Assembly (NCBI GenBank): GCA_029565675.1
Contig: JAKQNP010000032.1
Location: 124,001-188,000, forward strand
Direction of reading: 5' to 3'
Origin: a bacterium
GTDB taxonomy: Bacteria > Zhuqueibacterota > Zhuqueibacteria > Residuimicrobiales > Oceaniaggregativiventaceae
Length of the DNA: 64,000 nucleotides
In this document: positions 50,031 to 64,000 of the stretch, piece by piece
How the letters are laid out: the number at the start of each line of letters is the position of its first letter
How positions within the stretch are numbered: position 1 is the stretch's first letter
The notes under the pieces: generated by a model
Database searches by the model: none
Seen by the model: the letters and a program-made list of their open reading frames with translations, nothing else
Told to the model about the DNA's origin: nothing
Made by a program: the position numbers and the translations under genes

Positions 50031-50885
50031 TCAGTTGGCCGGAATAACCAGAACCGTATAAGGAAAGATCATATTGGCATTGCCACCAATAACGTCCTTG
50101 TTCCTTTCATAGATCTTTGCCCAACTGCCTGGGTCGCCCAAAACATCGGCATTCCCGGCAATCTTGGACAGAAAATCACCTTTCTGCACGAGGTATTCAT
50201 CCGGACCGACTTCGCGTTGAATCTTGAGAATCTGTTGCGGATAGATCAGATCGGGATCCTTGATTTGATCTTTGTTGTAGCTATAGATGCGCATCCATTG
50301 CATCGGATCTGCATAGATATCTCGTTTGCCGGAGATTTTCCACAGATAGTCGCCCACAACAACGGAATACTCATCATAAATCGCCTTGGGCATTTTGTTT
50401 TTGATCTGCGTCAATTTGCCCTCAATCCCGGCAACCAGATTTTGCATCTCGGTCAGCGCAAAGATGGGATTCTGTTTCAGCGCTGCCAGTTTGGCCTCTG
50501 CATCTTTAATCTCTTCGCGTTTCTTGAAAAGCTCTTCTGGGGAAAGAGCCAAAAGACCGGCAACCTGAGCATCCAAATCTTTCAAGCTCTGGCGATAGGC
50601 ATCGACCGCATCGGCATCGACGCCGATCTCTTCATAGATCGCCTTCCAGGTCTCATCGACTTGGCCTTGCATTGCCTCAATTTCTTTCTTCACTTCTTCG
50701 CTGGCTTTGGCACAAGCGTCGAGTGCCTGTTTGGCTACAGTTTCACGCCCTTGCCATTGCGCCAATTGAGCGTTATAATCTTCCATACTCATCTTCTCTT
50801 GGGCCAGGGAAACAGAAGCACCAAAGATCAATGAGAAGGAAAGCAGAAGCGCAAGGCGAAATACATTTCGTATAGACAAACTCAT
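50031..50885 (-). CDS. exported coiled-coil protein with two LysM domains
   Basis: 284 aa. A signal peptide (about 1-28, ending 'ASVSLAQ') is followed by a long helical coiled-coil region (30-165, rich in Glu, Lys and Ala), then two LysM modules: 'YSVVVGDYLWKISGKRDIYA' with 'IYPQQILKI', and 'YLVQKGDFLSKIAGNADVLG' with 'IFPYTVLVIP'. LysM binds peptidoglycan N-acetylglucosamine, so this is probably a periplasmic wall-associated structural protein. No hydrolase domain is visible. The ATG at 50885 is preferred to a GTG just before it because GGAGGGAAGG is better spaced. It shares a transcript with the small lipoprotein gene 32 bp upstream. Confidence 0.88.
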   Translation of the reverse strand: MSLSIRNVFRLALLLSFSLIFGASVSLAQEKMSMEDYNAQLAQWQGRETVAKQALDACAKASEEVKKEIEAMQGQVDETWKAIYEEIGVDADAVDAYRQSLKDLDAQVAGLLALSPEELFKKREEIKDAEAKLAALKQNPIFALTEMQNLVAGIEGKLTQIKNKMPKAIYDEYSVVVGDYLWKISGKRDIYADPMQWMRIYSYNKDQIKDPDLIYPQQILKIQREVGPDEYLVQKGDFLSKIAGNADVLGDPGSWAKIYERNKDVIGGNANMIFPYTVLVIPAN

Positions 50886-50917
50886 CACCTTCCCTCCAAT
50901 GATTTGGGGTTAGATCG

Positions 50918-51193
50918 TTATTGTCCCATGGCCGCAAGACGACTGATTACATCGGATTGTTCTTGCTGAACGTTCGTCAATTCCTGTTTCTTGTCAGCGA
51001 GTTGACTCTTAACTTCAGCCTGGGCTTTTTCACAATCCGCAAGTTCTTGTTCAGCTGCTAATGCGGCTTGTTTGGTTTCCTCCAACAGCTGCAGTTGCTC
51101 CTGGTTCGGATGCTTGCTACATCCCGTCATGAAAACCGATGCCATCAGGGCAACCAACGAGAGGGTCACAATAATCCGGATCGCCTTTGTCAT
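50918..51193 (-). CDS. small coiled-coil lipoprotein
   Basis: 91 aa from the ATG at 51193, with AAGGAGGT 10 bp upstream. The leader 'SLVALMASVFMTGC' gives a good lipobox (MTGC, Cys25). The rest (30-91) is one long helix with heptad-like spacing ('LLEETKQAALAAEQELADCE', 'SQLADKKQELTNVQQEQSDV') and a second Cys at about 52. It resembles Lpp-like or OprI-like outer-membrane lipoproteins in layout but has no C-terminal Lys-Tyr-Arg-type wall link. Together with the LysM gene it could tie the outer membrane to the cell wall (inference from context). Confidence 0.85.
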   Translation of the reverse strand: MTKAIRIIVTLSLVALMASVFMTGCSKHPNQEQLQLLEETKQAALAAEQELADCEKAQAEVKSQLADKKQELTNVQQEQSDVISRLAAMGQ

Positions 51194-51284
51194 CAATTGT
51201 ACACCTCCTTTCAAGGACTGCGAGATTAATGTACTAGATGCTTCATTCTAAACAGCATGTTTTAAACACATTCGCACTTTAAAT

Positions 51285-51390: not shown

Positions 51391-53187
51391 TTATTCCGCA
51401 TTTTCGCTGCTTGGCTTGTGAAGTTCCTGCACAAACTGCAACCCGAGTTCTTGCAGTTGTCTTTCGCTCACCTGTGCCGGTGCGCCGTCCATCAACGACA
51501 TGGCGCTGGCTGTTTTGGGAAAAGCGATCACCTCGCGGATGGATGACGAATCGGTCAAAACCATCACCAGACGATCGAATCCAAAAGCAATTCCTCCATG
51601 CGGTGGAGTGCCATAGGTCAATGCCTCGAGCAAATAGCCAAATTTGTCATGCGCTTCTTGATGGGAAATGCCCAAAACCTGAAACATTTTGCTTTGAATT
51701 TTTTCATCTGAGATTCGAATGCTGCCACCAGCAATCTCGCTGCCATTCAAGACCAGGTCATAGGCTCGCGCATGGACATCCTGGGGATGCGCTTGCAGCT
51801 TGTCCAGATCTGCCAGGTTGGGTGAAGTGAATGGGTGGTGACGGGCAACATAGCGCTGTTCTTCCTTGCTGTATTCGAACAATGGAAAGTCGACAATCCA
51901 GGTAAATTCGTAGCGATCCGATGGGACCCAATTTTCTTCTCGCGCCAGCGCGAGCCGCAGCTGTCCAAGGGTATCAAGAACGATATCCTGTTGATCGGCG
52001 ACGATGAGGATCAGGTCACCGTCACTTGCTGCCAATTCTCCAATGATGGCCTGACGTTGCGCATCGCCAAAGTATTTGTTCAGGGTGCTTTCCCAATCGC
52101 TGTCCTTGATTTTTATGGCGACCAGACCTTTGGCGCCGAAACTTTTCGCTTGTTCTGTCAGAGAATCGATTTGCTTTCGCGAATAGGCGGCACAACCTTT
52201 TGCACAGATGCCGGCAACCAGCCCCCCGCTTTCGATGGTTTGGCGAAAAATTTGAAAATCGCTCTCTTTCGCCAGCGCAGAGAGATTGTGAATTTTTGCG
52301 CCAAAGCGCAAATCGGGTTTGTCTGAACCGTAGTTCATCATCGCCTCTTCATAGCTGAGGCGTTGAAAGGGCAAGTTCAACTGGACACCGATGATCTCGG
52401 TAAAAATTTTCTGTACCAACCGCTCGACAATGGCAAAAATATCCTCTTCGTCGATAAATGACATTTCAACGTCGATTTGGGTGAATTCCGGTTGACGGTC
52501 GGCGCGCAAATCTTCATCCCGAAAGCAGCGCACAATCTGAAAATAGCGATCAAATCCCGACATCATCAACAGCTGTTTGTAGGTCTGTGGAGATTGCGGC
52601 AAAGCATAAAATCGACCGTTCCATACCCGACTGGGAACGAGAAAATCGCGAGCGCCTTCGGGAGTGCTCTTCATCAAAAACGGTGTTTCGATTTCGATAA
52701 AGCCATTTTCGCTAAAGTAGTTGCGCACGAGCTGTGCGGTCTGGTGACGTATCATCAGATTGCGCTGCATGTTGCGATTGCGCAGATCCAGATAGCGGTA
52801 CTTTAAACGCAAATCTTCTGAAGAAGAGATCTTGCCAGAGATCTGAAATGGCGGGGTTTGGGCTATGCTCATCAGATCGATATCTTCAGCGACCAACTCT
52901 ACTTCGCCGGTGGATAGATTTTTATTCTCCATATTGTCTGGCCGGCGTTCGACTCGGCCTTGAAATCCAGCCACGTATTCAGAACGGAGTTTTTTCGCGT
53001 CTTCATACACTTTGCACGCGGGATCGATACGAATCTGGGTGATGCCATAGCGATCGCGCAAATCGATAAAAATCAAACCACCATGATCGCGGCGTTTTTC
53101 AACCCAACCCATCAAAACAGCTTTCTTGCCAATGTCACTGCTGCGCAGATCACCACACGTGTGTGTTCGTTTCCATTTCATAGACAT
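51391..53187 (-). CDS. aspS: aspartyl-tRNA synthetase
   Basis: 598 aa, bacterial-type AspRS with the GAD insertion. An N-terminal OB-fold anticodon-binding domain (about 1-110) is followed by class II catalytic motifs 'FRDEDLRADRQPEFTQIDVE' (motif 2) and 'GIAFGFDRLVMVL' (motif 3), and 'TPEGARDFLVPSR' between them. The GAD domain spans about 290-420. It charges tRNA-Asp; whether it is discriminating or also charges tRNA-Asn cannot be read safely from the sequence. It is on the same strand as the AgmX/PglI-like gene, whose stop is 145 bp upstream behind a weak terminator. Confidence 0.96.
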   Translation of the reverse strand: MSMKWKRTHTCGDLRSSDIGKKAVLMGWVEKRRDHGGLIFIDLRDRYGITQIRIDPACKVYEDAKKLRSEYVAGFQGRVERRPDNMENKNLSTGEVELVAEDIDLMSIAQTPPFQISGKISSSEDLRLKYRYLDLRNRNMQRNLMIRHQTAQLVRNYFSENGFIEIETPFLMKSTPEGARDFLVPSRVWNGRFYALPQSPQTYKQLLMMSGFDRYFQIVRCFRDEDLRADRQPEFTQIDVEMSFIDEEDIFAIVERLVQKIFTEIIGVQLNLPFQRLSYEEAMMNYGSDKPDLRFGAKIHNLSALAKESDFQIFRQTIESGGLVAGICAKGCAAYSRKQIDSLTEQAKSFGAKGLVAIKIKDSDWESTLNKYFGDAQRQAIIGELAASDGDLILIVADQQDIVLDTLGQLRLALAREENWVPSDRYEFTWIVDFPLFEYSKEEQRYVARHHPFTSPNLADLDKLQAHPQDVHARAYDLVLNGSEIAGGSIRISDEKIQSKMFQVLGISHQEAHDKFGYLLEALTYGTPPHGGIAFGFDRLVMVLTDSSSIREVIAFPKTASAMSLMDGAPAQVSERQLQELGLQFVQELHKPSSENAE

Positions 53188-53332: not shown

Positions 53333-54457
53333 TTAAAAACCAAAAGTATAGACTTGGCGGAAGGTCGCGTTGCCCATCTCGGTATCGATCTGTCCAAAAT
53401 CGTCCCACCGGCTGACACGCGACAGGATGCAGCGTTCGACGCTCTCGCTCTTGAGTGTGGACGAAATGATGTGAGGATTAATCACTTTTCCTTCAGGGGT
53501 TATAGTAAATCGGACGACCACTTTTCCTTTAAGATTTGGAAAACGCTTGAGTTCCCGTTCATAGCAATATTGAATCGCGGCGCTGTGGGCGTAGACAATC
53601 GATGAGACCTCGTTGATGTCGCGTCCGGCCAAACGACCGCCAGAGGGTTGAATTTCTTGCCCTTCGTCGCTCAACGGCGCCAAAGGCGATACGTCAAAGT
53701 CAGATGTCCTGGTAAAAGCTGCGGTTTCAGCGCTGCCAAGGCCGGTAACCACTCCATCCAGACTGCCACCTTCGGTTCTCCGCCCGCTGGTAATCGCTTG
53801 ACGTCCCATTCCACCGCTGCCCGATGTACCCTCGGCGCTGCCCCCACCACCAGAAGTCGCTTGCCCTCTGGAAGCGAGTCGATCCATATTGCGCATGGCT
53901 TTGTCATAGTCCTGTTCAGCGACTCCGCCTTGGCCGAGAACATCTTGTAGCGTTCCATCGACCCGATCGCCGCTGGGGCTGGTGAGAATTCCCAACAGTC
54001 CCTGGTTGGCAACATTGGGATCACCCGCCGTTGAAGTACCACCGCCAGTTCCAACCCCTCTGCTGGCTGTACCAGAACCACCTGGACCACTGGCGCTGCT
54101 CGCTGCAGTGGAGCCGTCGCCTTTTGGCGGCAGTATGGAAGATGACGGTGCGGTTCTCGACGTGCCGCTGGAAGGAACAAAGCTTTCGAGCTCTTTCTGG
54201 ACGGCCTGCGGCAATGTCAACATGTTGCCGATAAAGTCAGAAGGAGTCGTTTCAAGCACAGCTTCGGCATAGTCTGCCTGAACGCGCTTGATCGCCTCCT
54301 TGTCTACAGAGCTGGCGGCAGGCAGAGGGTTAAAGACAAAATAGAGCACCGTCGCGAAATGCATAAAAAAGGAAATCGCTAAAATAATCAGAAACGTCCG
54401 ATCCAGATCTTCAAACGGCCGCTTCTTAAATTCAGGTGATAGGGCAAAAGCAGAAAT
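53333..54457 (-). CDS. TonB-like trans-envelope protein with AgmX/PglI-type C-terminal domain
   Basis: 374 aa if started at ATT 54457. 'EFKKRPFEDLDRT' is cytoplasmic, one membrane helix (21-43) follows, then a long Gly/Ser/Thr-rich linker (about 90-230) that can cross the periplasm, and a C-terminal domain (274-374) with 'HSAAIQYCYERELKRFPNLK', 'VVVRFTITPEGKVINPHI' and 'VERCILSRVSRW'. The two Cys (298, 343) and the 'F-T-I-x-P-x-G-x-V' pattern are typical of AgmX/PglI (GltJ/GltG) tails, which take the place of TonB in energised envelope machines. It lies downstream of the ExbB and both ExbD genes. The proposed ATT start rests on the ribosome site described separately; a GTG at 54490 is the alternative and would add 11 residues. 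Confidence 0.82.
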   Translation of the reverse strand: MSAFALSPEFKKRPFEDLDRTFLIILAISFFMHFATVLYFVFNPLPAASSVDKEAIKRVQADYAEAVLETTPSDFIGNMLTLPQAVQKELESFVPSSGTSRTAPSSSILPPKGDGSTAASSASGPGGSGTASRGVGTGGGTSTAGDPNVANQGLLGILTSPSGDRVDGTLQDVLGQGGVAEQDYDKAMRNMDRLASRGQATSGGGGSAEGTSGSGGMGRQAITSGRRTEGGSLDGVVTGLGSAETAAFTRTSDFDVSPLAPLSDEGQEIQPSGGRLAGRDINEVSSIVYAHSAAIQYCYERELKRFPNLKGKVVVRFTITPEGKVINPHIISSTLKSESVERCILSRVSRWDDFGQIDTEMGNATFRQVYTFGF

Positions 54458-54468
54458 AGTACACCTCC
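54455..54468 (-). promoter_or_regulatory. ribosome-binding site pointing to an ATT start codon
   Basis: On the minus strand, GGAGGT (54468-54463) is followed after 5 bases by ATT (54457-54455). No ATG, GTG or TTG lies at that distance. The upstream GTG (54490) has its only purine run touching the start codon, too close to work well. Confidence 0.5.
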
Positions 54469-54587
54469 GTACCAAGCACTTGTAAATCACTCCTGCCTGC
54501 GTCGTTCGAGTTGAGTCTCATGAGTTTGAGATGGCGCATGAATGACGAAGGCAACACAATCCCTTGTTCTGGGCCTCGCAGCCTAAC

Positions 54588-55082
54588 TCAGGCCTCCTTT
54601 TGGTAGACGACCAATCTCATGTTGGGATATTCGGAACGACCACAAGTTGCCATAACCTTGATCAAGGTTCGAAAAGGAAGCTCTTTATCGCCCTGGATGG
54701 TGACTTTGCCCGAAAACTTGACTCCATACATCTCTTCCATCCGTCGAGATTCAGAAGCATAGCGCTGCAATTCTCTACTCAAAGGCTCGATGATCAAGCC
54801 TGGTTGCTGCACCACTTCACTGACGTTGGCAACCGGTTGGTTGTTGACCATGATCCATTCCTTTGAGACCACTACATCCAAGGCGATTTCCGGAGGATTT
54901 TTAACCGTCGACGAGGGCAGAGTCAAATTTTGTGAAGGCTGAATGAGTTGTCCTTCAGTCGAATAGGTTTTGAGCATGAAGACCAGGATAATTGTAAACA
55001 TGTCCATCATCGAGGTCAAATTGAGACTCACGCCTCTGGGGCTGGTGTCGTGCTTTTTTATTCGTGACGGTATGAATGCCAT
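54588..55082 (-). CDS. ExbD/TolR-family proton-channel protein (Asp present)
   Basis: 164 aa. A short cytoplasmic start, one transmembrane helix with the proton-carrying Asp27 ('LNLTSMMDMFTIILVFMLKT', 20-39), then a periplasmic domain (55-164) with 'VTIQGDKELPFRTLIKVMAT', where the last strand-helix unit matches the ExbD/TolR dimer fold. With ExbB it converts proton flow into movement of the TonB-like partner. It is the second of two ExbD genes; the first, 28 bp upstream, lacks the Asp. The TonB-like gene follows after about 130 bp. Confidence 0.9.
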   Translation of the reverse strand: MAFIPSRIKKHDTSPRGVSLNLTSMMDMFTIILVFMLKTYSTEGQLIQPSQNLTLPSSTVKNPPEIALDVVVSKEWIMVNNQPVANVSEVVQQPGLIIEPLSRELQRYASESRRMEEMYGVKFSGKVTIQGDKELPFRTLIKVMATCGRSEYPNMRLVVYQKEA

Positions 55083-55110
55083 TGCGAGATTCCTTTAACA
55101 AACAATAGGC

Positions 55111-55647
55111 TTACAATATCCCGGCGCTGATCGATACCTCGGGAAAAAGCTCATGGTCGATATCATCGATTTTGAACGAGCGTGCTGCATCCATCGCGCT
55201 CACCAGAATCTGGTAGCCTATATCGCCTTCTGCTTGCATGATAATTCGTTTGGTGTCCAGCGGACCGCCGGCAATTTTGGTCTTGATATCGACCAGCATC
55301 TCGTTTAACCGGCTAAAGTTATAACTGCCATCCTCGTTCTTGGGAATGGTCGGTCCCCCGGAAACGGGATTGTGCAAAATTGCCTGCGCGCTCGACAGAT
55401 AGATCCCTTCTGAAGTGATCGTGACCGTCAAGTCGATGTTCTGTCGCGATTCTTTGGGCAATTGCATTCCAGCGGTCGCGCCTCCAGCCGCTTGCGGCAA
55501 GTTCAGCTCGATGATGCCGATCTGAATTGCAGTAGCGGTCGACAGAAGCAACGGAATCAGCACCACCATCAAGTTCATCATTGGAAACATATTGATTTCA
55601 ACAGGTTGAGGGGTGTGACTGCTGCGTTTGGAAGGTTGATAGGCCAT
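55111..55647 (-). CDS. ExbD/TolR-like protein with the channel Asp replaced by Asn
   Basis: 178 aa from the ATG at 55647; a TTG at 55653 overlapping the exbB stop is an alternative and would add two residues. The helix reads 'VEINMFPMMNLMVVLIPLLL' (17-36). The family motif N-x-x-P-x-x-D is present except that the last position is Asn25 (codon AAC), not Asp. The Asp is needed for proton flow in ExbD and TolR, so this subunit alone should not conduct. The periplasmic part (about 60-178) has 'PLDTKRIIMQAEGDIGYQIL' and 'VSAMDAARSFKIDDID', as in ExbD. A mixed dimer with the Asp-containing paralogue is the simplest idea. It directly follows exbB. Confidence 0.88.
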   Translation of the reverse strand: MAYQPSKRSSHTPQPVEINMFPMMNLMVVLIPLLLSTATAIQIGIIELNLPQAAGGATAGMQLPKESRQNIDLTVTITSEGIYLSSAQAILHNPVSGGPTIPKNEDGSYNFSRLNEMLVDIKTKIAGGPLDTKRIIMQAEGDIGYQILVSAMDAARSFKIDDIDHELFPEVSISAGIL

Positions 55648-55649
55648 AC

Positions 55650-56303
55650 TCAACGATTCCCGGTCAGAAGGTTGATCAATTTAACCGAATGCTCATCAAT
55701 TTCATCGATGATTTTTTTTGTCCTGCTCTGCAGGTAACTATAGAAAAGCGTAGAAGGTACAGCGATCAGTAAACCCGCCAGAGTCGTATTCATGGCAGTT
55801 GAAATACCTGCGGCCAAAAGCCTTGCTTTTTCAGTCGGGTCGATGCCAGGAGCAGAAACAGCGCGAAAAGCGAGAATCAGGCCATAAATCGTGCCCATCA
55901 GACCGATTAAAGTTGCCACATTGGCCAGCATGGCGAGATAATGGGTGCGCTGTTCAAGCTTGGGTATGACTTCCAGCATTCCCTCATCGACCGAGTTTTG
56001 GATCGTGCGGAAATCGGCATCAGAGTCCTTTTTCACCACTGCGCGCAAACCAGAGCCGATCACTTTGGGCAAAGCCCGATCACCAGCGCTCTGACAAAGC
56101 TCAAGGGCATCAGAGGCCTTGTTCGCCTTGATCAGTTTGTGTATCTCTTGCATAAATTTGCTGGCATTGATATCGCTTTTAATCAATATGTAGATAAATC
56201 GTTCCACGGCAATGGCAACGGCAAAAACGGCAGGAATGAGCAAGATCCACATAAACTGCCAACCTGCAACATCTGGACTGAAATTTCTCAAGAGTTCCGA
56301 CAT
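55650..56303 (-). CDS. ExbB/TolQ/MotA-family proton-channel protein
   Basis: 217 aa with three transmembrane segments (about 15-38, 118-145, 160-190). 'LAMLANVATLIGLMGTIYGL' and 'AGISTAMNTTLAGLLIAVPS' are the conserved pore-lining stretches. ExbB-type pentamers surround the ExbD dimer to form the stator. It is a TolQ-like member with a normal cytoplasmic loop between helices 1 and 2. AGGGAGGT lies upstream of the ATG. Its stop overlaps or abuts the start of the first ExbD gene. The protein partners are the two ExbD proteins and the TonB-like protein. Confidence 0.92.
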   Translation of the reverse strand: MSELLRNFSPDVAGWQFMWILLIPAVFAVAIAVERFIYILIKSDINASKFMQEIHKLIKANKASDALELCQSAGDRALPKVIGSGLRAVVKKDSDADFRTIQNSVDEGMLEVIPKLEQRTHYLAMLANVATLIGLMGTIYGLILAFRAVSAPGIDPTEKARLLAAGISTAMNTTLAGLLIAVPSTLFYSYLQSRTKKIIDEIDEHSVKLINLLTGNR

Positions 56304-56495
56304 TCAAACCTCCCTTTCTCAGTGACACCAAAAGCAAAACCACCGTTACCCATCAGCCTGACGATCAGCTGTGTCCTACAACAAATCGTCCTTTGATTCG
56401 GTTATAGGTACAACATCATTCTTGGGACCAAATCCACGTTTGCATTCACGCAGCGGCAACTGATACCCAAGACATTTTTACAAAAAAATATATTT

Positions 56496-56855
56496 TTATT
56501 TGTCCTCTTTAGCAAGAAGTTTTTTGAGTTTTTTGATTCGTTTGCCCCCTTCCAGCTCTTGCCCATAATCCAAAACCGTTTCAGGCTTTTGGCGCATTTC
56601 ATTAAGAAAGGAACGGCGTTCCAACGGTAATGTCCCGACTGCGGTTTCCGCTCTTTTGGGCACAAAGGTGACACTGGGCTTTTCGATGATCGCCTCGATA
56701 TTAATCGTCTGCAACACTTGTTCATCGTATTCGCTGGACCGCGAAACAGCGGAGATCACCGCCGGCACGGTTTGAGCAGTATCCGGCGGCGCCGTTTGTT
56801 GTGCCCATATGGCGCCAAACATGAGACAGATTAGTAGAACACTCTGTTTTGGCAC
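56496..56855 (-). CDS. small exported protein of unknown family in the ExbB/ExbD locus
   Basis: 119 aa. GTG start with AAAAGGAG 7 bp upstream. The leader (1-18, ending 'FGAIWAQ') predicts a periplasmic location. Residues 20-55 are Thr/Ala/Ser-rich; 60-95 hold 'PSVTFVPKRAETAVGTLPLE' and 'RRSFLNEMRQKPETVLDYGQ', and the end is a Lys/Leu-rich helix ('GGKRIKKLKKLLAKED'). I do not recognise a family. Its place, 21 bp after the 1524-residue TPR gene and before exbB, suggests it is an undescribed part of the same envelope machine, perhaps a link between TPR scaffold and stator (inference). Confidence 0.75.
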   Translation of the reverse strand: MPKQSVLLICLMFGAIWAQQTAPPDTAQTVPAVISAVSRSSEYDEQVLQTINIEAIIEKPSVTFVPKRAETAVGTLPLERRSFLNEMRQKPETVLDYGQELEGGKRIKKLKKLLAKEDK

Positions 56856-56876
56856 GATCGCACTCCTTTTCCTGTT

Positions 56877-59800
56877 TTATGGGATTCGCCCTCGTTCGAT
56901 CATCATCTCTTGCTGTGCTTGTTCCCCCGCCATTTCGGGGTTCAACATTTTGACGCGTTGAGCCCAATCCGGCAAACTGCGAACATCGATTTTTGCTGAT
57001 AAAAATCCGGACTCTGCTTCTTGGCTTTTGACCTCAACGGCGAGCAGGTTGTTGCCATCCACCAAAAGCTCAGAGACATCGACAGTCACAAAAGTTTCAT
57101 TTGAAGTTGCATTGGTTATTTTTTTTACCAGATCACCGTTAAAGTAGACATTGATGTTGGCATGCGGAACAAGCGATATGGCGCAGTCGACTGGCAGTCC
57201 TTGCACAGCGATTGATTTGCGATAAAACGCATCGGCTGCAGGTTTGCGAATACTCAAAATGGTGACTGAATCCACGTCGACAGTGAGAACAGAATCTCGC
57301 TCGACATAGGTCCAGATGGTTGGCCAAGATGAGGCATCGCCTGGAGCAACAACTGCAGCTTGTTGCCAGCCGCTGTCGTCGAACTGTGGCAGAGCCCAAC
57401 CCTCAACATATTCGGTACCGGCTCTCCAACTGCTGTCGGTGTAGAAAGAGAAGGAAGAGATGGTCAAATCGATCAATCCGGCAAATTTTTCCGGATCGAA
57501 CCGGACCAGCTGTAAAGTTAAATTCTGCGAATAAAGGTTGCGAATATTGAAATTTTGCGCCATCGCATAGCCAGTCTGGAGTATTTCGCGCTGCAAATCC
57601 CGCAGCGCAAAATAGTTGCTGTTGAACGTAAACAGACCTTCCTCCAGCAACGGCGATTCAGTGCGCAAAAAGCCTTCGCGCGCTTGATTCGCCCATTTTT
57701 TTGCTATACGGCTCAGAGAATCAGCGGCCAATGCCGAGCGATAGGCGGTGAACATCATGGAATCACGGCTGCTGACAACAAAACGATCTTCGACAGCCAT
57801 GGTTTCTGCCAGGTGAATGGCTTCTCCGTATTTGTCAAGGCTGTTGTTGATCGTCGCTAAAGTTAAGTTTGTCGAGTTGGTCACATCATCAGCCAGCAAT
57901 TGCATATCGTAAAAATGATCATCCAAGGTTCCGGAACCGAAAACAAGATCACCATATTTTTGCAGCTTTTTACCGATCAAATCGAACCCCTGGTTAGAGA
58001 GATCGGTGTAATAAAGGGCGGCAAGATGTTTGGTCGACATGAGCTTTTCCAAAGCCAACTGCACCCATTGCGATTCAATCTGCAGGGAATCCGCTTCATT
58101 CAGGCAATTTTGATAGCCAATCAGGGTTTCCTGGATCATTGGCGCAACAACCGAATCGATGACCTGTTTCTGATAGACCAGTGCAGTGAAATCGCCCAGC
58201 CCAGAGGGAATCGGAGCTTGGGCCACGGCCTTTGCTGATTTGAGCAAGATCTCGGCCATTTCATAATTAACCTTCGAGAGCTGTTCTTTGCTGCGTCCCA
58301 ACCAGCTGTCGATGGCTTGGAGAACGGTATCCTGAGCTGTCACAGCCAGAGTATCGATCGGCAGGCTTTGGCTCTCTTTAATTTCCTCCAGCAGGGCGGT
58401 TTGGTACGCATCTTGTAGTCGGTTAAGCGCCTGAATACCGCTGCGATATGCGTCAGCGCTGCGATTGTAAAGCACCCGTGAAGCATCGTTGACTTCTTTT
58501 TGCGCGACGATTCGACGGATAGGCTCATCGATGGCGATATCTTGTTCAGACCAGGTTTGAGCAAACTCCTGGTAAGCCAATCCAATGGTAAAAGTCGCTT
58601 CGTAAATTCGATTCGTTCCGTAAGAGGTGCAATTGCTCAGGTGTCTGACAATTTCGAGCAGCAAATTCTTTTTGCGTTCTTTGTTGATTTCGATCTTGTC
58701 GACGGGCAGTCGGAAGTCAATTTGGTCATATTCCTGATATTTGACCATTGCCAGAGCGAATTCCGCTTCGCCGGCATAAAAATCGTTGCTTGCCATGCCG
58801 CTTTCGACGCGTTCGCGGTTTTTGAGCAAAGCCTTCTGGTATTCGGCGATCGCAGCGTTGGACTGCTGGCGATTGCGATGGTAATCACCTCGTTTAAAGT
58901 ACGCCTCAATGGTGCGCGGGTGAGAAGGAAACCGGTCGATAAAGTCGGCATAAGCCTGGTGCGATTGATCGAGATCGCCAAGCTGGCGAAAAAATCCGGC
59001 GATTTCAAAAGAAAGTTTCGGAGCTTCCTCATCAAGAGGAAAGCGTTGCAGAAACAAGCGGTTAACCTTGACGGCATCCTGCCAGTTTTCAGCACGGGCA
59101 AAATAAAAACTTGCGTTGTAAAGGGCATCACGCGCTTTGCTCTCTTCCGGATGAATGGTAGCCAGACGCTCATATGTCAAAGCCGCATTGCGATAATCGC
59201 GCAACTCGACGTAATCAAACGCCAAATTGTTTTGTGCATCATAGACGTACCCTGAACTGGGTCGAGTTGCCAACAACAAAAGATAGGTCTCAATCGCCCG
59301 CATATATTCACCAGCCTTGTCGTACTCGAGGCCAGCATTGAACAGAGCCAAATCAGCAAAGGAACTCTGTGGGGCTTCTTTGACCATGCGGCGGTATTCG
59401 TTACCCGCCTCAAAGTGCAGAGCTGACTCTGCCAACATCTCGGCATTCAAAAAGATCGATTCGGCCAATCGGCGGTTGGCGCGCGACATGAGCTCAGGAG
59501 AAGCATCCTGATCCAGGAGGATTTTTCTGGCGATAATTTCCGAACTGCGAAAATCAGCTTTGCCAAAATAGCTTTCCAGAATGGCGAATCGCGCATGATT
59601 GACTTGTTCTGAAGTCGGGAAATGGCGCAAAAGGGTTTTAAAGTATTTCAAGGCATTCTTGAACTGGTTATGGCGATAGAACAATGCGCCCGCGTTGGCG
59701 AGAAACAGCGGTGTCTCTTCATCATGGGGAAACAATTTGATATAGTTGTCGTAGGCTTGCGCAAGACGCTCTTCCTCGACGGACAAGGGGGTTTCCAGCA

Positions 59801-61451
59801 GCTGCATCCGTTCGCGGAAATTGATTTTGGCCTGGCCGGTCGCCTCCGCCTCGCTGGCAAGATCGCTGACCGTCGGTTGTTTTTGTTCCTCGAACTGTTT
59901 CGCCAATTGGGCCAAAGTATCTTCGGCAGCTTCACGGGACAACGCCACTGCGTTTTTCGCGGCAAAGCGCTGATATTTGCTGTTCCAATATTTATCGGAA
60001 ATTTTCAAATATTCGTCGAAAGCCTCGATCCTGCGATTGAGCTTGGTGTCGAGCATCAATGCCATATTCCAATGAATCAACGCGGCGCTCGAGTCATTGG
60101 GAAAGGCGCCAAGATAACGACGGCTTTGGACAACAGCCTGGTTGTAGAGATCGAGTCGTTCGTTTTCTTGGGCATTGTTGAACAAAAAGGTGACATTGTC
60201 TCGCAAGGCGCTTTCGGTGAGCAGATAGGCCTGTTCGCGGGTTTGTTTGTCGATATTGGCTTCCCACCAAGCCGATTCCTGGCTATAGCGGGTGAACAAA
60301 AGATCTCGGGACAGGAAAGCCAGCGCATCTTCGCCCATTCGCCGTTGACACTGGATGATATTGCTCTGCACAGAGGGCGCACCCGGATGCATGGGATAGA
60401 GTTCAACAAACAACTCATATGCCCGGATAGCTAAAGCATAGTCTTCTTTTTCCCGCATGTAAGCATCGCCGATTCGCTGCAGTATTGCGGCGCCGTAATC
60501 GCGGTCGCCGATTGATCGCAGATAGTCGGCGGCAGCCTGTGGCCCGCCTCTTTCCAAAAAGCTGAGGCCGATATATTCGACCGCTTCATCCATGAGCGAA
60601 GGGTTGGTATATTTTTGCAGCGGATCATGTGGAACATTGGCATGGATGTCGTCGGCCAAAACAGTGAAATAAGAGATGGCTTTGTCGTATTCGCTCAGAC
60701 GATAATATGACCACCCCAAGCGATAAAGCGCTTCGTCATAGCGCGGGCTTTCTTTATAAACCAAAATTCGGTTGTAATAGTCAATCGCTTCGTAGAGCTG
60801 ATTGCGCGGCGGATTGAAATGGTACTCACCCAAACGCATGAGCACATCAGGCATGAGATTGGATTGCGGATAGTCGTGAATAATGCGTTCGTAGATGGTT
60901 GTTGCGCTGTCGGCGATTTCAGAGTCCTCAAACAAGACGCCGATATTGTACAGAGCGTCGTCGACCAGATCGCTCTGCTGATATCTGGTAACTACAGTTT
61001 CATAGGCGAGCAAAGCCTGAGAAAAATCCTGTTTGGGCTCAGCCGGGGGTTCAGCAATTTGCTCGCGCTCATATAACGAATAGAGTCGGTCGTATTCCTG
61101 CATTCGTTGCGCAAACTCTTCTTGCGCTTGTTCGTAGTAAAGCTCTGCCAGACGCATCAGAATCTTATCGCCAACCTTTGTGCGCGGATTGCGACTGAGG
61201 AAAAGCTCGGCATCGCGAATCCCCTGCTTGCGCAATTCTTCGCGTTCCCATTTGAGCCGTTCACGCTCACGAGAATAGTAGGAGCGAAATCTTTCCAACT
61301 CCTCGATGCTAAAAGCCTGGATCACCGAATCGGTCAACGACAGAGATTGAAGTTTGGGCACAAATTGCCGAGGTTCTTGCGCCTGGGCGCTGAACCCGGT
61401 AAAAAAAAGCAGCCCGCAAAAAAGTGCAACCACTGTTCGAGTTGGATTCAT
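56877..61451 (-). CDS. giant periplasmic TPR protein with C-terminal jelly-roll domain
   Basis: 1524 aa. Signal peptide 1-24 ('LFCGLLFFTGFSAQAQ'). A charged helical start (about 45-110, 'YYSRERERLKWEREELRKQ') leads into a very long TPR array (about 115-1260) of the outer-membrane-lipoprotein type, with repeats such as 'ALYNIGVLFEDSE', 'EALYRLGWSYYRLSEYDKAI' and 'AQNNLAFDYVELRDYRNAAL'. The last part (about 1325-1505) is a beta-sandwich like the galactose-binding or GH2 jelly-roll fold ('FDDSGWQQAA', 'INVYFNGDLVKKITN', 'GNNLLAVEVKS'). TPR arrays with an ExbB/ExbD module and an AgmX-like protein recall GltD (AgmU)/GltE (AglT) of Myxococcus. No lipobox is seen. Binding partners unknown. Confidence 0.85.
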   Translation of the reverse strand: MNPTRTVVALFCGLLFFTGFSAQAQEPRQFVPKLQSLSLTDSVIQAFSIEELERFRSYYSRERERLKWEREELRKQGIRDAELFLSRNPRTKVGDKILMRLAELYYEQAQEEFAQRMQEYDRLYSLYEREQIAEPPAEPKQDFSQALLAYETVVTRYQQSDLVDDALYNIGVLFEDSEIADSATTIYERIIHDYPQSNLMPDVLMRLGEYHFNPPRNQLYEAIDYYNRILVYKESPRYDEALYRLGWSYYRLSEYDKAISYFTVLADDIHANVPHDPLQKYTNPSLMDEAVEYIGLSFLERGGPQAAADYLRSIGDRDYGAAILQRIGDAYMREKEDYALAIRAYELFVELYPMHPGAPSVQSNIIQCQRRMGEDALAFLSRDLLFTRYSQESAWWEANIDKQTREQAYLLTESALRDNVTFLFNNAQENERLDLYNQAVVQSRRYLGAFPNDSSAALIHWNMALMLDTKLNRRIEAFDEYLKISDKYWNSKYQRFAAKNAVALSREAAEDTLAQLAKQFEEQKQPTVSDLASEAEATGQAKINFRERMQLLETPLSVEEERLAQAYDNYIKLFPHDEETPLFLANAGALFYRHNQFKNALKYFKTLLRHFPTSEQVNHARFAILESYFGKADFRSSEIIARKILLDQDASPELMSRANRRLAESIFLNAEMLAESALHFEAGNEYRRMVKEAPQSSFADLALFNAGLEYDKAGEYMRAIETYLLLLATRPSSGYVYDAQNNLAFDYVELRDYRNAALTYERLATIHPEESKARDALYNASFYFARAENWQDAVKVNRLFLQRFPLDEEAPKLSFEIAGFFRQLGDLDQSHQAYADFIDRFPSHPRTIEAYFKRGDYHRNRQQSNAAIAEYQKALLKNRERVESGMASNDFYAGEAEFALAMVKYQEYDQIDFRLPVDKIEINKERKKNLLLEIVRHLSNCTSYGTNRIYEATFTIGLAYQEFAQTWSEQDIAIDEPIRRIVAQKEVNDASRVLYNRSADAYRSGIQALNRLQDAYQTALLEEIKESQSLPIDTLAVTAQDTVLQAIDSWLGRSKEQLSKVNYEMAEILLKSAKAVAQAPIPSGLGDFTALVYQKQVIDSVVAPMIQETLIGYQNCLNEADSLQIESQWVQLALEKLMSTKHLAALYYTDLSNQGFDLIGKKLQKYGDLVFGSGTLDDHFYDMQLLADDVTNSTNLTLATINNSLDKYGEAIHLAETMAVEDRFVVSSRDSMMFTAYRSALAADSLSRIAKKWANQAREGFLRTESPLLEEGLFTFNSNYFALRDLQREILQTGYAMAQNFNIRNLYSQNLTLQLVRFDPEKFAGLIDLTISSFSFYTDSSWRAGTEYVEGWALPQFDDSGWQQAAVVAPGDASSWPTIWTYVERDSVLTVDVDSVTILSIRKPAADAFYRKSIAVQGLPVDCAISLVPHANINVYFNGDLVKKITNATSNETFVTVDVSELLVDGNNLLAVEVKSQEAESGFLSAKIDVRSLPDWAQRVKMLNPEMAGEQAQQEMMIERGRIP

Positions 61452-61545
61452 CGGGACAATCCTGATTGACCGTTCAAATCACCGCTAATACCGCACTGTG
61501 GAGCGACAAGGAGGAGATAGGGCTCTTGCTGAACCTGGTCAGCAC

Positions 61546-64000
61546 TCAGCGTTCGATCAATTCGCGAAGACGGCCTTCCCAGTCCTCTTCCTCTCTCTCC
61601 CGAATATCGAAATACTGTTTATCGAAATATGTCTGTTTTTCTTGTTGTTCGAGAGCAATCTTTCTGGCAAGCCACAGCTGTTGCAGGGCCTCGACCTCGG
61701 CCTCAAAAATCTGCAATCGGTCTTCGATCGCTTGTTTTCGCGCGCGATAGATGTTCTCGATGGTCTGGATTTGGCCGGTATAGTTGGTGATTTGATCGAG
61801 TTTTTCCTTGCGCGTTTGATAGATGATATCTGCGATTTCGAAACCGGAAAAATCGCTCCAGCGATCCAAATCAGACGCCGGAGCGTCTGGCACAGCCTGA
61901 GTCATCCATTTGCGAAATGCGCTCAAGCGGTCCTGCAGACGGACCAGATCTTTTTCCAGCAATTCCAAATCGACCCGAGCGGAAAAGTCTACTTTGCTGG
62001 TTGCTTGTGTCTGTAAAATTTCTATTTCATCGAAATGAATCTCGAGACGTCGTTTTTCCAGCTCCAGATCGCGATAGGTTGAGGCCAAGTTTTCCCGCCT
62101 ATACGCCATGCTTCCTTCCTTGGCGACCAACGGAAAATCGACCAGATAAGCCGTATTGACAACATCTTGATCGGCTTGAAAAGTCTCCAGAACCCGGATC
62201 AAACGAGCGCGTTGTTGCATGGCCTTGGCGGTAATATCGGGGCGGTTCTCCTTCTCAGCCCATTCGAGAATCTCATCGACTTGATCGATGTGGCGCAAAA
62301 GATCCATTCGCTCATCAAAATAATCTTGCAGAAGCAGATTGCCGGTATCGCTTTTTTCCTGTACTTGCAGCAGAAATTCGTTTAACTCACCGCGAACATT
62401 CGAGATGGCAGCGAAGAGATCCTCGCGTCGGGTTTCCAGAGCGTCTTTTTCGAGCTGTCCAAGTTCGCGAATCTGCTCAAGAGCGCCCATGCGTTCGCGG
62501 TCGAAATCCTGTTGCACATCGAGGTGATGGCGTGCACGAACCACATAGCGATATGCGTGCAGGGCGGCATCCGGTTGACCGAGAAGACGCTGACAGTGGG
62601 CAGACATGACCAGCGCTTCATAGGTAAAATTGGAGGCCAGATAATTTCGCAAAAGCGCGTGACTCTTTTCGATGGTTCGGTCATAATCGCCTTGCTCAAG
62701 AGCGATCCACGCCTGCCCCAGCAAGGCTTTGTCCAGGCCCTGATAGCCCTGTGAGACGGCGTCAAAAGCGCTTTGCGCTTTGTAGAACTCACCGTTTTGG
62801 TAATGGATCATTCCCAAGCGAACCAGCGCCGTGTTGCGAATATAGGCGGTGTTCAGGTTCGTCCACGGATAATTGACTTTGTCGCTGAGCATCTCGAGTA
62901 TTGGCACAGCTGATGCAAGCTCATCCAAATTAAGATGGACCACACTGAGCAGGAGTTGGGCCGGCGGGTAGAATTCGCTGCCCGGTCCGATGAGCTGCAG
63001 GATTTCACGCGCACGGTGAAACTGGGCGCTGTCAAAATGGCGGTTCGCCGCCAGATAATGGGCATAGTCGATCAATTGAGGGGTAGCAACCGAATCGATT
63101 GCCAAAAAGCGATCATAATAATTCATAAAATCTAAAGTGCCTTCAAAATCGTTTGCATATTGCATCAATCTGACCAACGATTCGGCGTGATAGATCGACG
63201 GTTGTGGATCATTCAGCACCTGCAGGTAATAATATCGTGCTCCGTCGAGGGCCTGTCGATGATAACGCGCTTCAGCAATATAGTAATTGAGAGAAGTAAA
63301 AAAATCATCCCGTTTGGGCCATGTTTCCATGACATCGAGAAGCTGATATTCGGCGGTCAAATAAAATCCATCGGCATAGTTGAGCATCGCGCTTTTGACG
63401 TGATCGGCAAAAATTCGCTCGCTTTCCGTGGTGTTGCCGGCGGCCAGCAGCTTTTTTCGAATCGCCTGATACTCAGCCAAACGGGTTAAAACGTCAACCA
63501 TTCTCTCATCTTTCCAACTATCGATATAGGTGGAAAGAGTGGGATAAAAGGTGCGGTCATATCCTGAGCGTGATAAAAGATCAAAAACCGATCCATCCAG
63601 CTGGGTCATGAGCCGCTGCTTGATCTGAATCAACTCATTCTCGGGATTGACTTCACCAGGCGGCAGGGTTTTATCGATGTTGCCGACGACCCGTTGGATC
63701 TTTTCTGTCTCGATTTGATAGCGGATATAATCTTCTTCGTTCAGAGGTCCGAGCCCACCCCAGGAACTGAACACACGAACGAGGGCGGCTTGTTGCTCAG
63801 CAATCTGTTGCAGCGCCGCTGCATTGTTGTCAGCTCGAGCCTGGACTTTGAGGAATTCCAACGTGTCGTACATGCCAAGCAGAGTGTCGAGCTCGGCGGT
63901 ATAATCGTCGACCATTCCGCCCACACGCTCAGGCGAATAGATTCCTTTTTTATAAATTTTGCGATCATCGATCGACGCTTTAATGTTATCCCGGGTATCG
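61546..64000 (-). CDS. large TPR/coiled-coil protein, N-terminus beyond the window edge
   Basis: 818 codons are visible and the frame stays open to base 64000, with 'DNIKASIDDRKIYKKGIYSP' read before the apparent GTG at 63924, so the real start lies outside. TPR-like helical pairs fill the first 450 visible residues ('YYIAEARYHRQALDGARYYY', 'AYIRNTALVRLGMIHYQNGE'). The rest is coiled coil, ending in a strongly charged helix ('EREEEDWEGRLRELIER'). It is on the same strand as, and 94 bp upstream of, the 1524-residue TPR gene. It probably belongs to the same scaffold. It is not recognised as a specific family beyond TPR. Confidence 0.8.
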   Translation of the reverse strand, partial: DTRDNIKASIDDRKIYKKGIYSPERVGGMVDDYTAELDTLLGMYDTLEFLKVQARADNNAAALQQIAEQQAALVRVFSSWGGLGPLNEEDYIRYQIETEKIQRVVGNIDKTLPPGEVNPENELIQIKQRLMTQLDGSVFDLLSRSGYDRTFYPTLSTYIDSWKDERMVDVLTRLAEYQAIRKKLLAAGNTTESERIFADHVKSAMLNYADGFYLTAEYQLLDVMETWPKRDDFFTSLNYYIAEARYHRQALDGARYYYLQVLNDPQPSIYHAESLVRLMQYANDFEGTLDFMNYYDRFLAIDSVATPQLIDYAHYLAANRHFDSAQFHRAREILQLIGPGSEFYPPAQLLLSVVHLNLDELASAVPILEMLSDKVNYPWTNLNTAYIRNTALVRLGMIHYQNGEFYKAQSAFDAVSQGYQGLDKALLGQAWIALEQGDYDRTIEKSHALLRNYLASNFTYEALVMSAHCQRLLGQPDAALHAYRYVVRARHHLDVQQDFDRERMGALEQIRELGQLEKDALETRREDLFAAISNVRGELNEFLLQVQEKSDTGNLLLQDYFDERMDLLRHIDQVDEILEWAEKENRPDITAKAMQQRARLIRVLETFQADQDVVNTAYLVDFPLVAKEGSMAYRRENLASTYRDLELEKRRLEIHFDEIEILQTQATSKVDFSARVDLELLEKDLVRLQDRLSAFRKWMTQAVPDAPASDLDRWSDFSGFEIADIIYQTRKEKLDQITNYTGQIQTIENIYRARKQAIEDRLQIFEAEVEALQQLWLARKIALEQQEKQTYFDKQYFDIREREEEDWEGRLRELIER

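Follow-up and report, generated by a model that had tools for sequence, protein, structure and literature searches.

A conserved seven-gene operon of KSB1 bacteria as a probable variant of the Agl/Glt core complex

We suggest that seven genes in a 64,000-nucleotide stretch of a KSB1 genome (the window; contig C42) encode a trans-envelope machine that is driven by the proton motive force and is a homologue of the Agl/Glt core complex, a reading to which we assign a probability of about 0.75. The link to Agl/Glt had been proposed in a sequence-only reading of this DNA and is borne out by one-to-one profile homology to GltC, GltD, CglF and GltG together with the placement of ExbB in an Agl-like clade. 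The further claim of an undescribed system was too strong, given that a Group B core outside the myxobacteria was described in 2011 (PMC3169522); the operon appears instead to be a variant form of the Agl/Glt core complex.

Organization and conservation of the operon

The seven open reading frames picked out by the sequence-only reading are all present on the minus strand (Table 1). From upstream to downstream they code for TPR1, TPR2, a small exported protein, ExbB, ExbD1, ExbD2 and a transducer, with gaps of 94, 21, 192, -4, 28 and 97 bases, and a further 145 bases separate the last gene from aspS, beyond which lies a gene for a LysM protein. TPR1 is truncated by the window, its gene starting 425 bases past the edge, and further upstream follow genes for a bactofilin, an M23 peptidase, ParB and ParA and, beyond these, for an S46-like peptidase and a DNA ligase. 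Neighbours conserved across loci are aspS and, in some, parAB-M23-bactofilin. TolB, Pal and a TonB receptor, which had been reported missing from the window, adjoin the operon on neither side, and the absence holds among the upstream neighbours past base 64,000. Scans for promoters and terminators gave results near shuffled expectation.

Table 1. Coordinates of the operon and its downstream neighbour in the window
Feature	Position	Strand	Basis or remark
TPR1, GltC-like periplasmic TPR/coiled-coil protein	61546..64000, continues to 64425 (contig C42:188425)	-	959-aa ORF
TPR2, GltD-like giant periplasmic TPR protein, 1524 aa	56877..61451	-	passes Pfam TPR cut-offs; hhalign
TPR2 C-terminal jelly-roll domain, sugar-binding type	56994..57461 (residues about 1331-1486)	-	profile and model
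Small exported protein, CglF/GltF-like, 119 aa	56496..56855	-	motif and hhalign
ExbB/TolQ-type proton channel subunit, AglR-like	55650..56303	-	PF01618, 87 bits
ExbD1, with Asn in place of the proton Asp (P-M-M-N-L-M)	55111..55653	-	PF02472
ExbD2, with proton-position Asp27 (S-M-M-D-M-F)	54588..55082	-	PF02472
GltG-like force transducer	53333..54490	-	NF033768 match, alignment, hhalign, TM survey
aspS	51391..53187	-	conserved downstream neighbour, outside the machine; adjoins the operon in 36/53 loci with room

Whether this order is unique to one genome had been set as a test beforehand. In each of 21 loci taken from across the phylum the order is identical, and it recurs in 57 of the 77 genome loci found by sequence, a set that takes in Calditrichota and a five-genome sister phylum and in which most of the remaining loci end at contig edges; conservation on this scale excludes chance. 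Full-length TPR1 homologues occur in most genomes of the phylum, and a TPR1 scan of viral contigs gave no match. TPR1, TPR2 and the operon-type ExbD1 are jointly absent from genomes G035-G038, G042, G044 and G051-G053, and the losses include near-complete KSB1 genomes. The cassette is strictly ordered and mostly vertically kept, and two KSB1 lineages have lost it as one unit.

The putative periplasmic scaffold

In an hhalign matrix of the operon against the Myxococcota Glt proteins, the pairs TPR1-GltC, TPR2-GltD, small protein-CglF and transducer-GltG score far above all off-diagonal combinations. TPR similarity inflates profile scores, though the matrix is strongly diagonal. The Myxococcota loci have the same order of gltC, gltD, the small gene and gltG, plus gltE.

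TPR1 matches Myxococcota GltC at 99.6% in the profile-profile comparison and is the top match of the Myxococcota GltC profile in 21/21 loci (40-98 bits); the NCBIfam GltC model gave no match to it. The position of its gene upstream of the gltD-like gene agrees with GltC, and its predicted model is all-helical with a TPR core at residues 297-617 and pLDDT mostly above 85. TPR2 matches Myxococcota GltD at 100% over 907 columns, and the two are reciprocal top matches in 21/21 loci. The sequence-only reading had equated the TPR pair with GltD and GltE. The profile matrix rules this out in favour of GltC and GltD and leaves GltE without a counterpart: the GltE profile reaches at most 25.5 bits, scattered over TPR1 and TPR2, and the operon has no third TPR gene. 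A consistent lipobox was found in neither TPR protein.

The jelly roll at the C-terminus of TPR2 matches rhamnosidase and lectin structures in profile searches (E 3e-11 and 2e-10), and its model (mean pLDDT 86) finds GH2 enzymes with Foldseek (E 6e-5). By census, neither Myxococcota GltD nor the paralogue from another operon of this genome (C46) has this domain; the C46 operon is architecturally nearer to Glt.

The small exported protein carries the motif IEKPxVxxxPKR...RSFxxE, conserved in 20 loci. It matches CglF at 92.9% and all other Glt families at <1%; the reciprocal match is weak and found in 15/21 loci. Outside the profile-profile comparison the similarity to CglF is weak, and the protein is proposed with less assurance as the counterpart of CglF.

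The putative motor and transducer

ExbB passes the PF01618 Pfam cut-off, retains the conserved pore Thr positions and falls in an Agl-like motor clade with the Myxococcota motors, apart from the sampled TolQ/ExbB proteins, with 100/100 support in the tree. Both ExbD proteins pass the PF02472 Pfam cut-off (48.8 and 47.9 bits) and differ at the proton position: in the alignment column, ExbD1 has Asn in 21/21 phylum loci and in 63/63 of a wider set, and ExbD2 has Asp in 21/21 and 62/62, respectively. AglQ and AglS of Myxococcus are both described with the conserved proton Asp in PMC9389320, which leaves undecided whether Agl motors pair their two ExbD-like proteins as homodimers or as heterodimers. 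Some Myxococcota motors have the same Asn/Asp split, so a proton Asp in both ExbD proteins is not uniform among Agl-type motors. The split bears on the dimer question because an ExbD1 homodimer would have no proton carrier; since only ExbD2 could carry the proton, the residues predict an axle that is most likely an ExbD1/ExbD2 heterodimer. Because the split also occurs in some Myxococcota motors, culturable bacteria could be used to test the dimer question.

The transducer consists of a short segment, an N-terminal TM helix with S-x-x-x-H, a Gly-rich linker bearing a GLLGxLTS motif and a TonB-like AgmX/PglI C-terminal domain with two Cys that are invariant in the alignment. In the TM survey the S-x-x-x-H motif, as in TonB/TolA, is present in the KSB1 class, and the histidine is missing in Calditrichota and other distant members. 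Of the earlier description of an AgmX/PglI-tailed TonB-like protein, the tail stands (83.6 bits against NF033768, cut-off 40). We do not identify the protein as GltJ/AgmX-like: it scores far better with the GltG model, and the alignment to Myxococcota GltG (99.9%, 301 columns) spans the TM helix and linker. The match to NF033760 (1.8e-19) lies far below the equivalog cut-off of that model, and a Pfam scan found neither an FHA nor a vWA domain.

Discussion

From the genes present and their order, their conservation, homology and joint loss, the intact motor residues and the domain architecture, we infer how the machine is assembled and in what stoichiometry, how force passes through it, and what its cargo and biological role are, as follows: (i) ExbB with ExbD1 and ExbD2 would form an inner-membrane channel motor, the working axle being one ExbD1/ExbD2 heterodimer within an ExbB pentamer, (ii) the TM helix of the transducer would anchor it at the motor, its flexible Gly-rich linker would span the periplasm and its TonB-like AgmX tail would be presented to a periplasmic scaffold, (iii) this scaffold would comprise TPR2 as a GltD-like rod with a jelly-roll end, the GltC-like TPR1 and the small CglF-like protein, and (iv) cyclic pulling would be passed on to a cargo that is encoded elsewhere and lies in the outer membrane or is bound to glycan, the operon itself holding no gene for an outer-membrane partner. 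By analogy with Agl-Glt and Agl-Nfs, the role would most likely be to move or grip surface glycan or adhesin complexes, possibly in gliding. More tentatively, such motors may be widespread proton motors in which an asymmetric axle, made of a proton-carrying and a proton-inert ExbD, drives a glycan-binding GltD rod. If so, KSB1, Calditrichota and their relatives would have a distinct traction machine acting on glycans of the surface or the wall, and its stepping mechanism would differ from that of symmetric ExbD/TolR/MotB dimers.

The homology to GltC, GltD, CglF and GltG and the Agl-like motor would also fit a gliding engine in the strict Myxococcus sense, in which cell movement comes from surface adhesins that the operon drives. 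We consider this unlikely: besides the absence of GltE, no GltJ-type tail is found among the five AgmX tails of the genome, whose open frames reach at most 481 aa compared with 674 aa for GltJ, the TIGR04565 model for the GltA/GltB outer-membrane barrels has no match in this genome, and the core complex is not regarded as enough for gliding by itself (PMC3169522).

Alternatively, the operon could provide a Tol-Pal-like or CpoB-like tether that maintains the integrity or constriction of the outer membrane where a lineage has no classical tol-pal operon. TPR2 scores above the cut-off of the tol_pal_ybgF model, the remaining ExbB loci of the genome have no TolB-Pal nearby and Pal matches remain under the curated cut-off. 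However, any long TPR protein matches tol_pal_ybgF, and we reject a Tol-Pal reading of TPR2 because Myxococcota GltD matches likewise. The operon also lacks Pal and TolB, the tail is of the AgmX type with a sub-cut-off match to Pfam TonB_C, and loss from near-complete genomes is unexpected for basic envelope upkeep, all of which makes a tether rather improbable. Least of all do we expect energised nutrient uptake, with the transducer opening TonB-dependent receptors, e.g. for oligosaccharides, as proposed for a Fibrobacter cluster with genes raised on cellulose (PMC6851124). The TonB-like tail domain would suit this role, but no receptor adjoins the operon, separate conventional ExbB/ExbD/TonB sets exist in the same genome and a GltC/GltD-homologous TPR scaffold is foreign to Ton systems.

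The Myxococcus xanthus Agl-Glt gliding and Agl-Nfs sporulation machines share homologous GltC, GltD, CglF/GltF, GltG and motor proteins with the KSB1 operon. In Myxococcus, GltC is a periplasmic protein that binds barrels of the outer membrane (PMC4488436), and AglRQS moves a sugar polymer through Nfs (PMC3858216). The KSB1 machine, which is not known to drive motility, differs in that its motor genes lie inside the same single operon, that GltE is absent and that GltJ and the GltA/B barrels were not found with the models used.

The Group B core, i.e. GltC, D, E and G with AglRQS in one cluster, occurs in Gamma-, Beta- and Deltaproteobacteria and in Fibrobacter (PMC3169522). Shared with the KSB1 operon are the GltC-, GltD- and GltG-like proteins and the ExbB/ExbD/ExbD motor in one cluster, as well as an extra small gene noted for the non-delta members (PMC3169522). 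What makes the KSB1 operon a variant is the absence of GltE and of the transducer FHA domain, the jelly roll added to the GltD-like protein and the Asn that replaces Asp in ExbD1. PVC-group operons (PMC12204202) likewise have a TPR protein, one TolQ-like and two unlike TolR-like genes and an SHLS-type TM motif, with a vWA domain where the KSB1 transducer has its AgmX/PglI tail.

Our literature search for such a machine in KSB1 or Calditrichota found nothing relevant. The operon adds three phyla to the range of the Agl/Glt core machine, two of them major and uncultured and the third one small. Compared through locus tags and masses published in proteomic papers, the Fibrobacter succinogenes cluster FSU_2397-FSU_2403 (TPR 84 kDa, TPR 147 kDa, one gene, ExbB, ExbD, ExbD, TonB-like 32 kDa; PMC6851124, PMC4619616) matches the KSB1 operon in order. 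The Fibrobacter TPR proteins are somewhat smaller than TPR1 and TPR2, and the TonB-like protein, at 32 kDa, is too small to be the FHA form. FSU_2397-2403 are raised on cellulose, interpreted as transport, and FSU_2397 was found with cellulases in an outer-membrane-vesicle complex (PMC6851124). This cluster offers a cultured candidate for functional testing.

Results

The window spans C42:124001-188000 in a 4.43-Mb genome, whose closest named relatives belong to candidate division KSB1. Each of the genes named in the sequence-only reading is present on the minus strand, namely those for TPR1, TPR2, a small exported protein, ExbB, ExbD1, ExbD2 and the transducer (a TonB-like protein whose tail is of the AgmX/PglI type), with gaps of 94, 21, 192, -4, 28 and 97 bases between them and 145 more before aspS. 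The TPR1 gene is interrupted by the window edge, and its complete product has 959 aa. Past the edge lie genes for a bactofilin, an M23 peptidase, ParB and ParA, and thereafter unrelated genes; this neighborhood beyond TPR1, like the window itself in the earlier reading, showed neither TolB or Pal nor a TonB receptor. The parA-parB-M23-bactofilin quartet also precedes the operon in KSB1 loci L051, L055, L061, L066 and L094, and L110 has M23 and bactofilin only; a link to the cytoskeleton is possible.

Features in the genome outside the operon
Feature	Location	Remarks
Second Glt-like operon	contig C46, about 148790-156816 (L009:3791-11817)	paralogous to the window operon
Solitary third transducer paralogue	contig C39 (L162:8880-10043)	387 aa; TM S-x-x-x-H; AgmX tail; 219 bits to operon family; near thiL- and ffh-like genes; no adjoining motor genes
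Three further ExbB/ExbD sets with TonB-like proteins (L007, L008, L010)	C42:3525, C62:664546, C56:325056	a GH3 xylosidase-type gene adjoins one set; none has a classical TolB-Pal cluster alongside
parA-parB-M23 peptidase-bactofilin	L006:11778-14804	immediately upstream of TPR1, just outside window end
LysM protein with coiled-coil N-terminus and small Lpp-like coiled-coil lipoprotein	window 50031-51214	past aspS; envelope proteins

For comparison we used a phylum labeled Myxococcota from its gene content, in which GltG loci are numerous and those fetched are ordered gltC-gltD-gltE-small-gltG. The proteins of one such locus (L124) match the NCBIfam gliding models GltC, GltE, CglF and GltG, all below equivalog cut-offs. 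Immediately upstream of gltC-gltG in L124, L158 and L161 are TonB-dependent-receptor-like and TonB-like proteins. Along the diagonal of the profile-profile score matrix, TPR1 pairs with GltC (99.6%, score 214 versus 126 for GltD and 69 for GltE), TPR2 with GltD (100%, 792 versus 54 and 76), the small protein with CglF (92.9%, every other Glt family below 1%) and the transducer with GltG (99.9%). Reverse searches with GltC, GltD and GltG returned the same partner in 21/21 loci, and those with CglF did so, by weak matches, in 15/21; by neither approach did GltE find a partner among the operon proteins. In the ExbB tree, the operon family shares one clade (100/100 support) with the C46 paralogue and with the Agl-like motors of Myxococcota; the sampled TolQ/ExbB proteins sit outside it. 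The proposed kinship with Agl/Glt is thus borne out by matrix and tree, whereas the TPR pair, previously read as GltD/GltE, corresponds to GltC/GltD.

At the proton-Asp column, ExbD1 has Asn in 63/63 loci and ExbD2 Asp in 62/62. Myxococcota motors L170-L173 and L175 show this split too, as does L180; both ExbD proteins carry Asp in L176-L179 and L181-L183. Because this Asp/Asp form is spread over two clades of the ExbB tree, the state at this column has changed at least twice or has reverted. Two copies of ExbD1 would leave the motor without a proton carrier, and we therefore infer a heterodimer of ExbD1 and ExbD2.

The C-terminal jelly roll of TPR2, related to rhamnosidase and lectin by profile and to GH2-type domains by fold, is a putative sugar-binding-type domain; our census did not find it in Myxococcota GltD or C46-type paralogues.

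The gene order is identical in 21/21 fetched loci and is therefore not unique to this genome, and a full-length or nearly full-length TPR1 homologue occurs in most of the 82 genomes searched across the phylum. Scanning genome contigs with a TPR2 alignment gave 77 loci, chiefly from KSB1 and Calditrichota; 57 have the complete order, including three (L125-L127) of the paralogous, FHA-like type, and the majority of the remainder end at contig ends. TPR2 is also found in 5/5 genomes of a small separate phylum. That aspS lies downstream in 36 of the 53 loci with room speaks for mostly vertical inheritance. Full-length TPR1, operon-type TPR2 and operon-type ExbD1 are all missing from genomes G035-G038, G042, G044 and G051-G053, many of them >90% complete. 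In the sets tested, a genome that has any of these proteins has the other two as well, except in the KSB1 genus g38 (G068:C8, G069:C52), where the operon is divergent (TPR2 of 1364-1387 aa, ExbD1 at 174-180 bits) and TPR1, too diverged to find, is undetectable by search. The operon thus behaves as a single cassette, and a dispensable one.

The C46 operon encodes TPR proteins of 501 and 960 aa, a small protein, ExbB, ExbD(Asn), ExbD(Asp) and a GltG-like protein of 459 aa. The 501-aa protein weakly matches the GltC model (22.8 bits), and the N-terminus of the GltG-like protein is FHA-like by eye, with no Pfam match. Its architecture is closer to Glt than that of the window operon, and its TPR2-type protein is retained in most genomes that lost the window-type operon. 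Just upstream is a 356-aa exported protein, possibly of the outer membrane.

Discussion

The operon keeps its channel residues intact, its transducer and scaffold proteins have homologues in the Agl/Glt machine, and its genes stay linked and are lost together. We suggest that a motor of five ExbB subunits and one ExbD1/ExbD2 heterodimer would drive the transducer to pull on the GltD/GltC-like scaffolds, and that the cargo would be a glycan or an outer-membrane component encoded elsewhere. Given that Myxococcus GltC, a periplasmic protein, binds outer-membrane barrels (PMC4488436) and that AglRQS also powers Nfs, which distributes spore-coat polymer (PMC3858216), we favor by analogy a glycan- or adhesin-moving role over plain motility. 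Genes for polysaccharide export of the Wzz/Wza type adjoin the distant Glt-like clusters L120 and L122, which fits a role of the core machine on surface polymers.

The Agl/Glt core has GltE, whereas the operon lacks it; likewise, standard GltG carries an FHA domain, whereas the transducer has none and its TM helix lies almost at the start. This helix has S-x-x-x-H in the KSB1 class, as in TonB and TolA, and not in Calditrichota. The GLLGLL-type motif of the Gly-rich linker is shared with GltG and paralogues; a docking function for it would be pure speculation. Since searches for GltE and for the FHA domain found neither, we file the operon as a variant homologous to the Agl/Glt core and working like it, rather than as a standard member. 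A Group B core in one region with an additional small gene has been known outside myxobacteria since 2011 (PMC3169522), and the Fibrobacter cluster FSU_2397-2403, as described in the papers, shares the gene order of the window operon, with proteins of similar mass (PMC4619616, PMC6851124).
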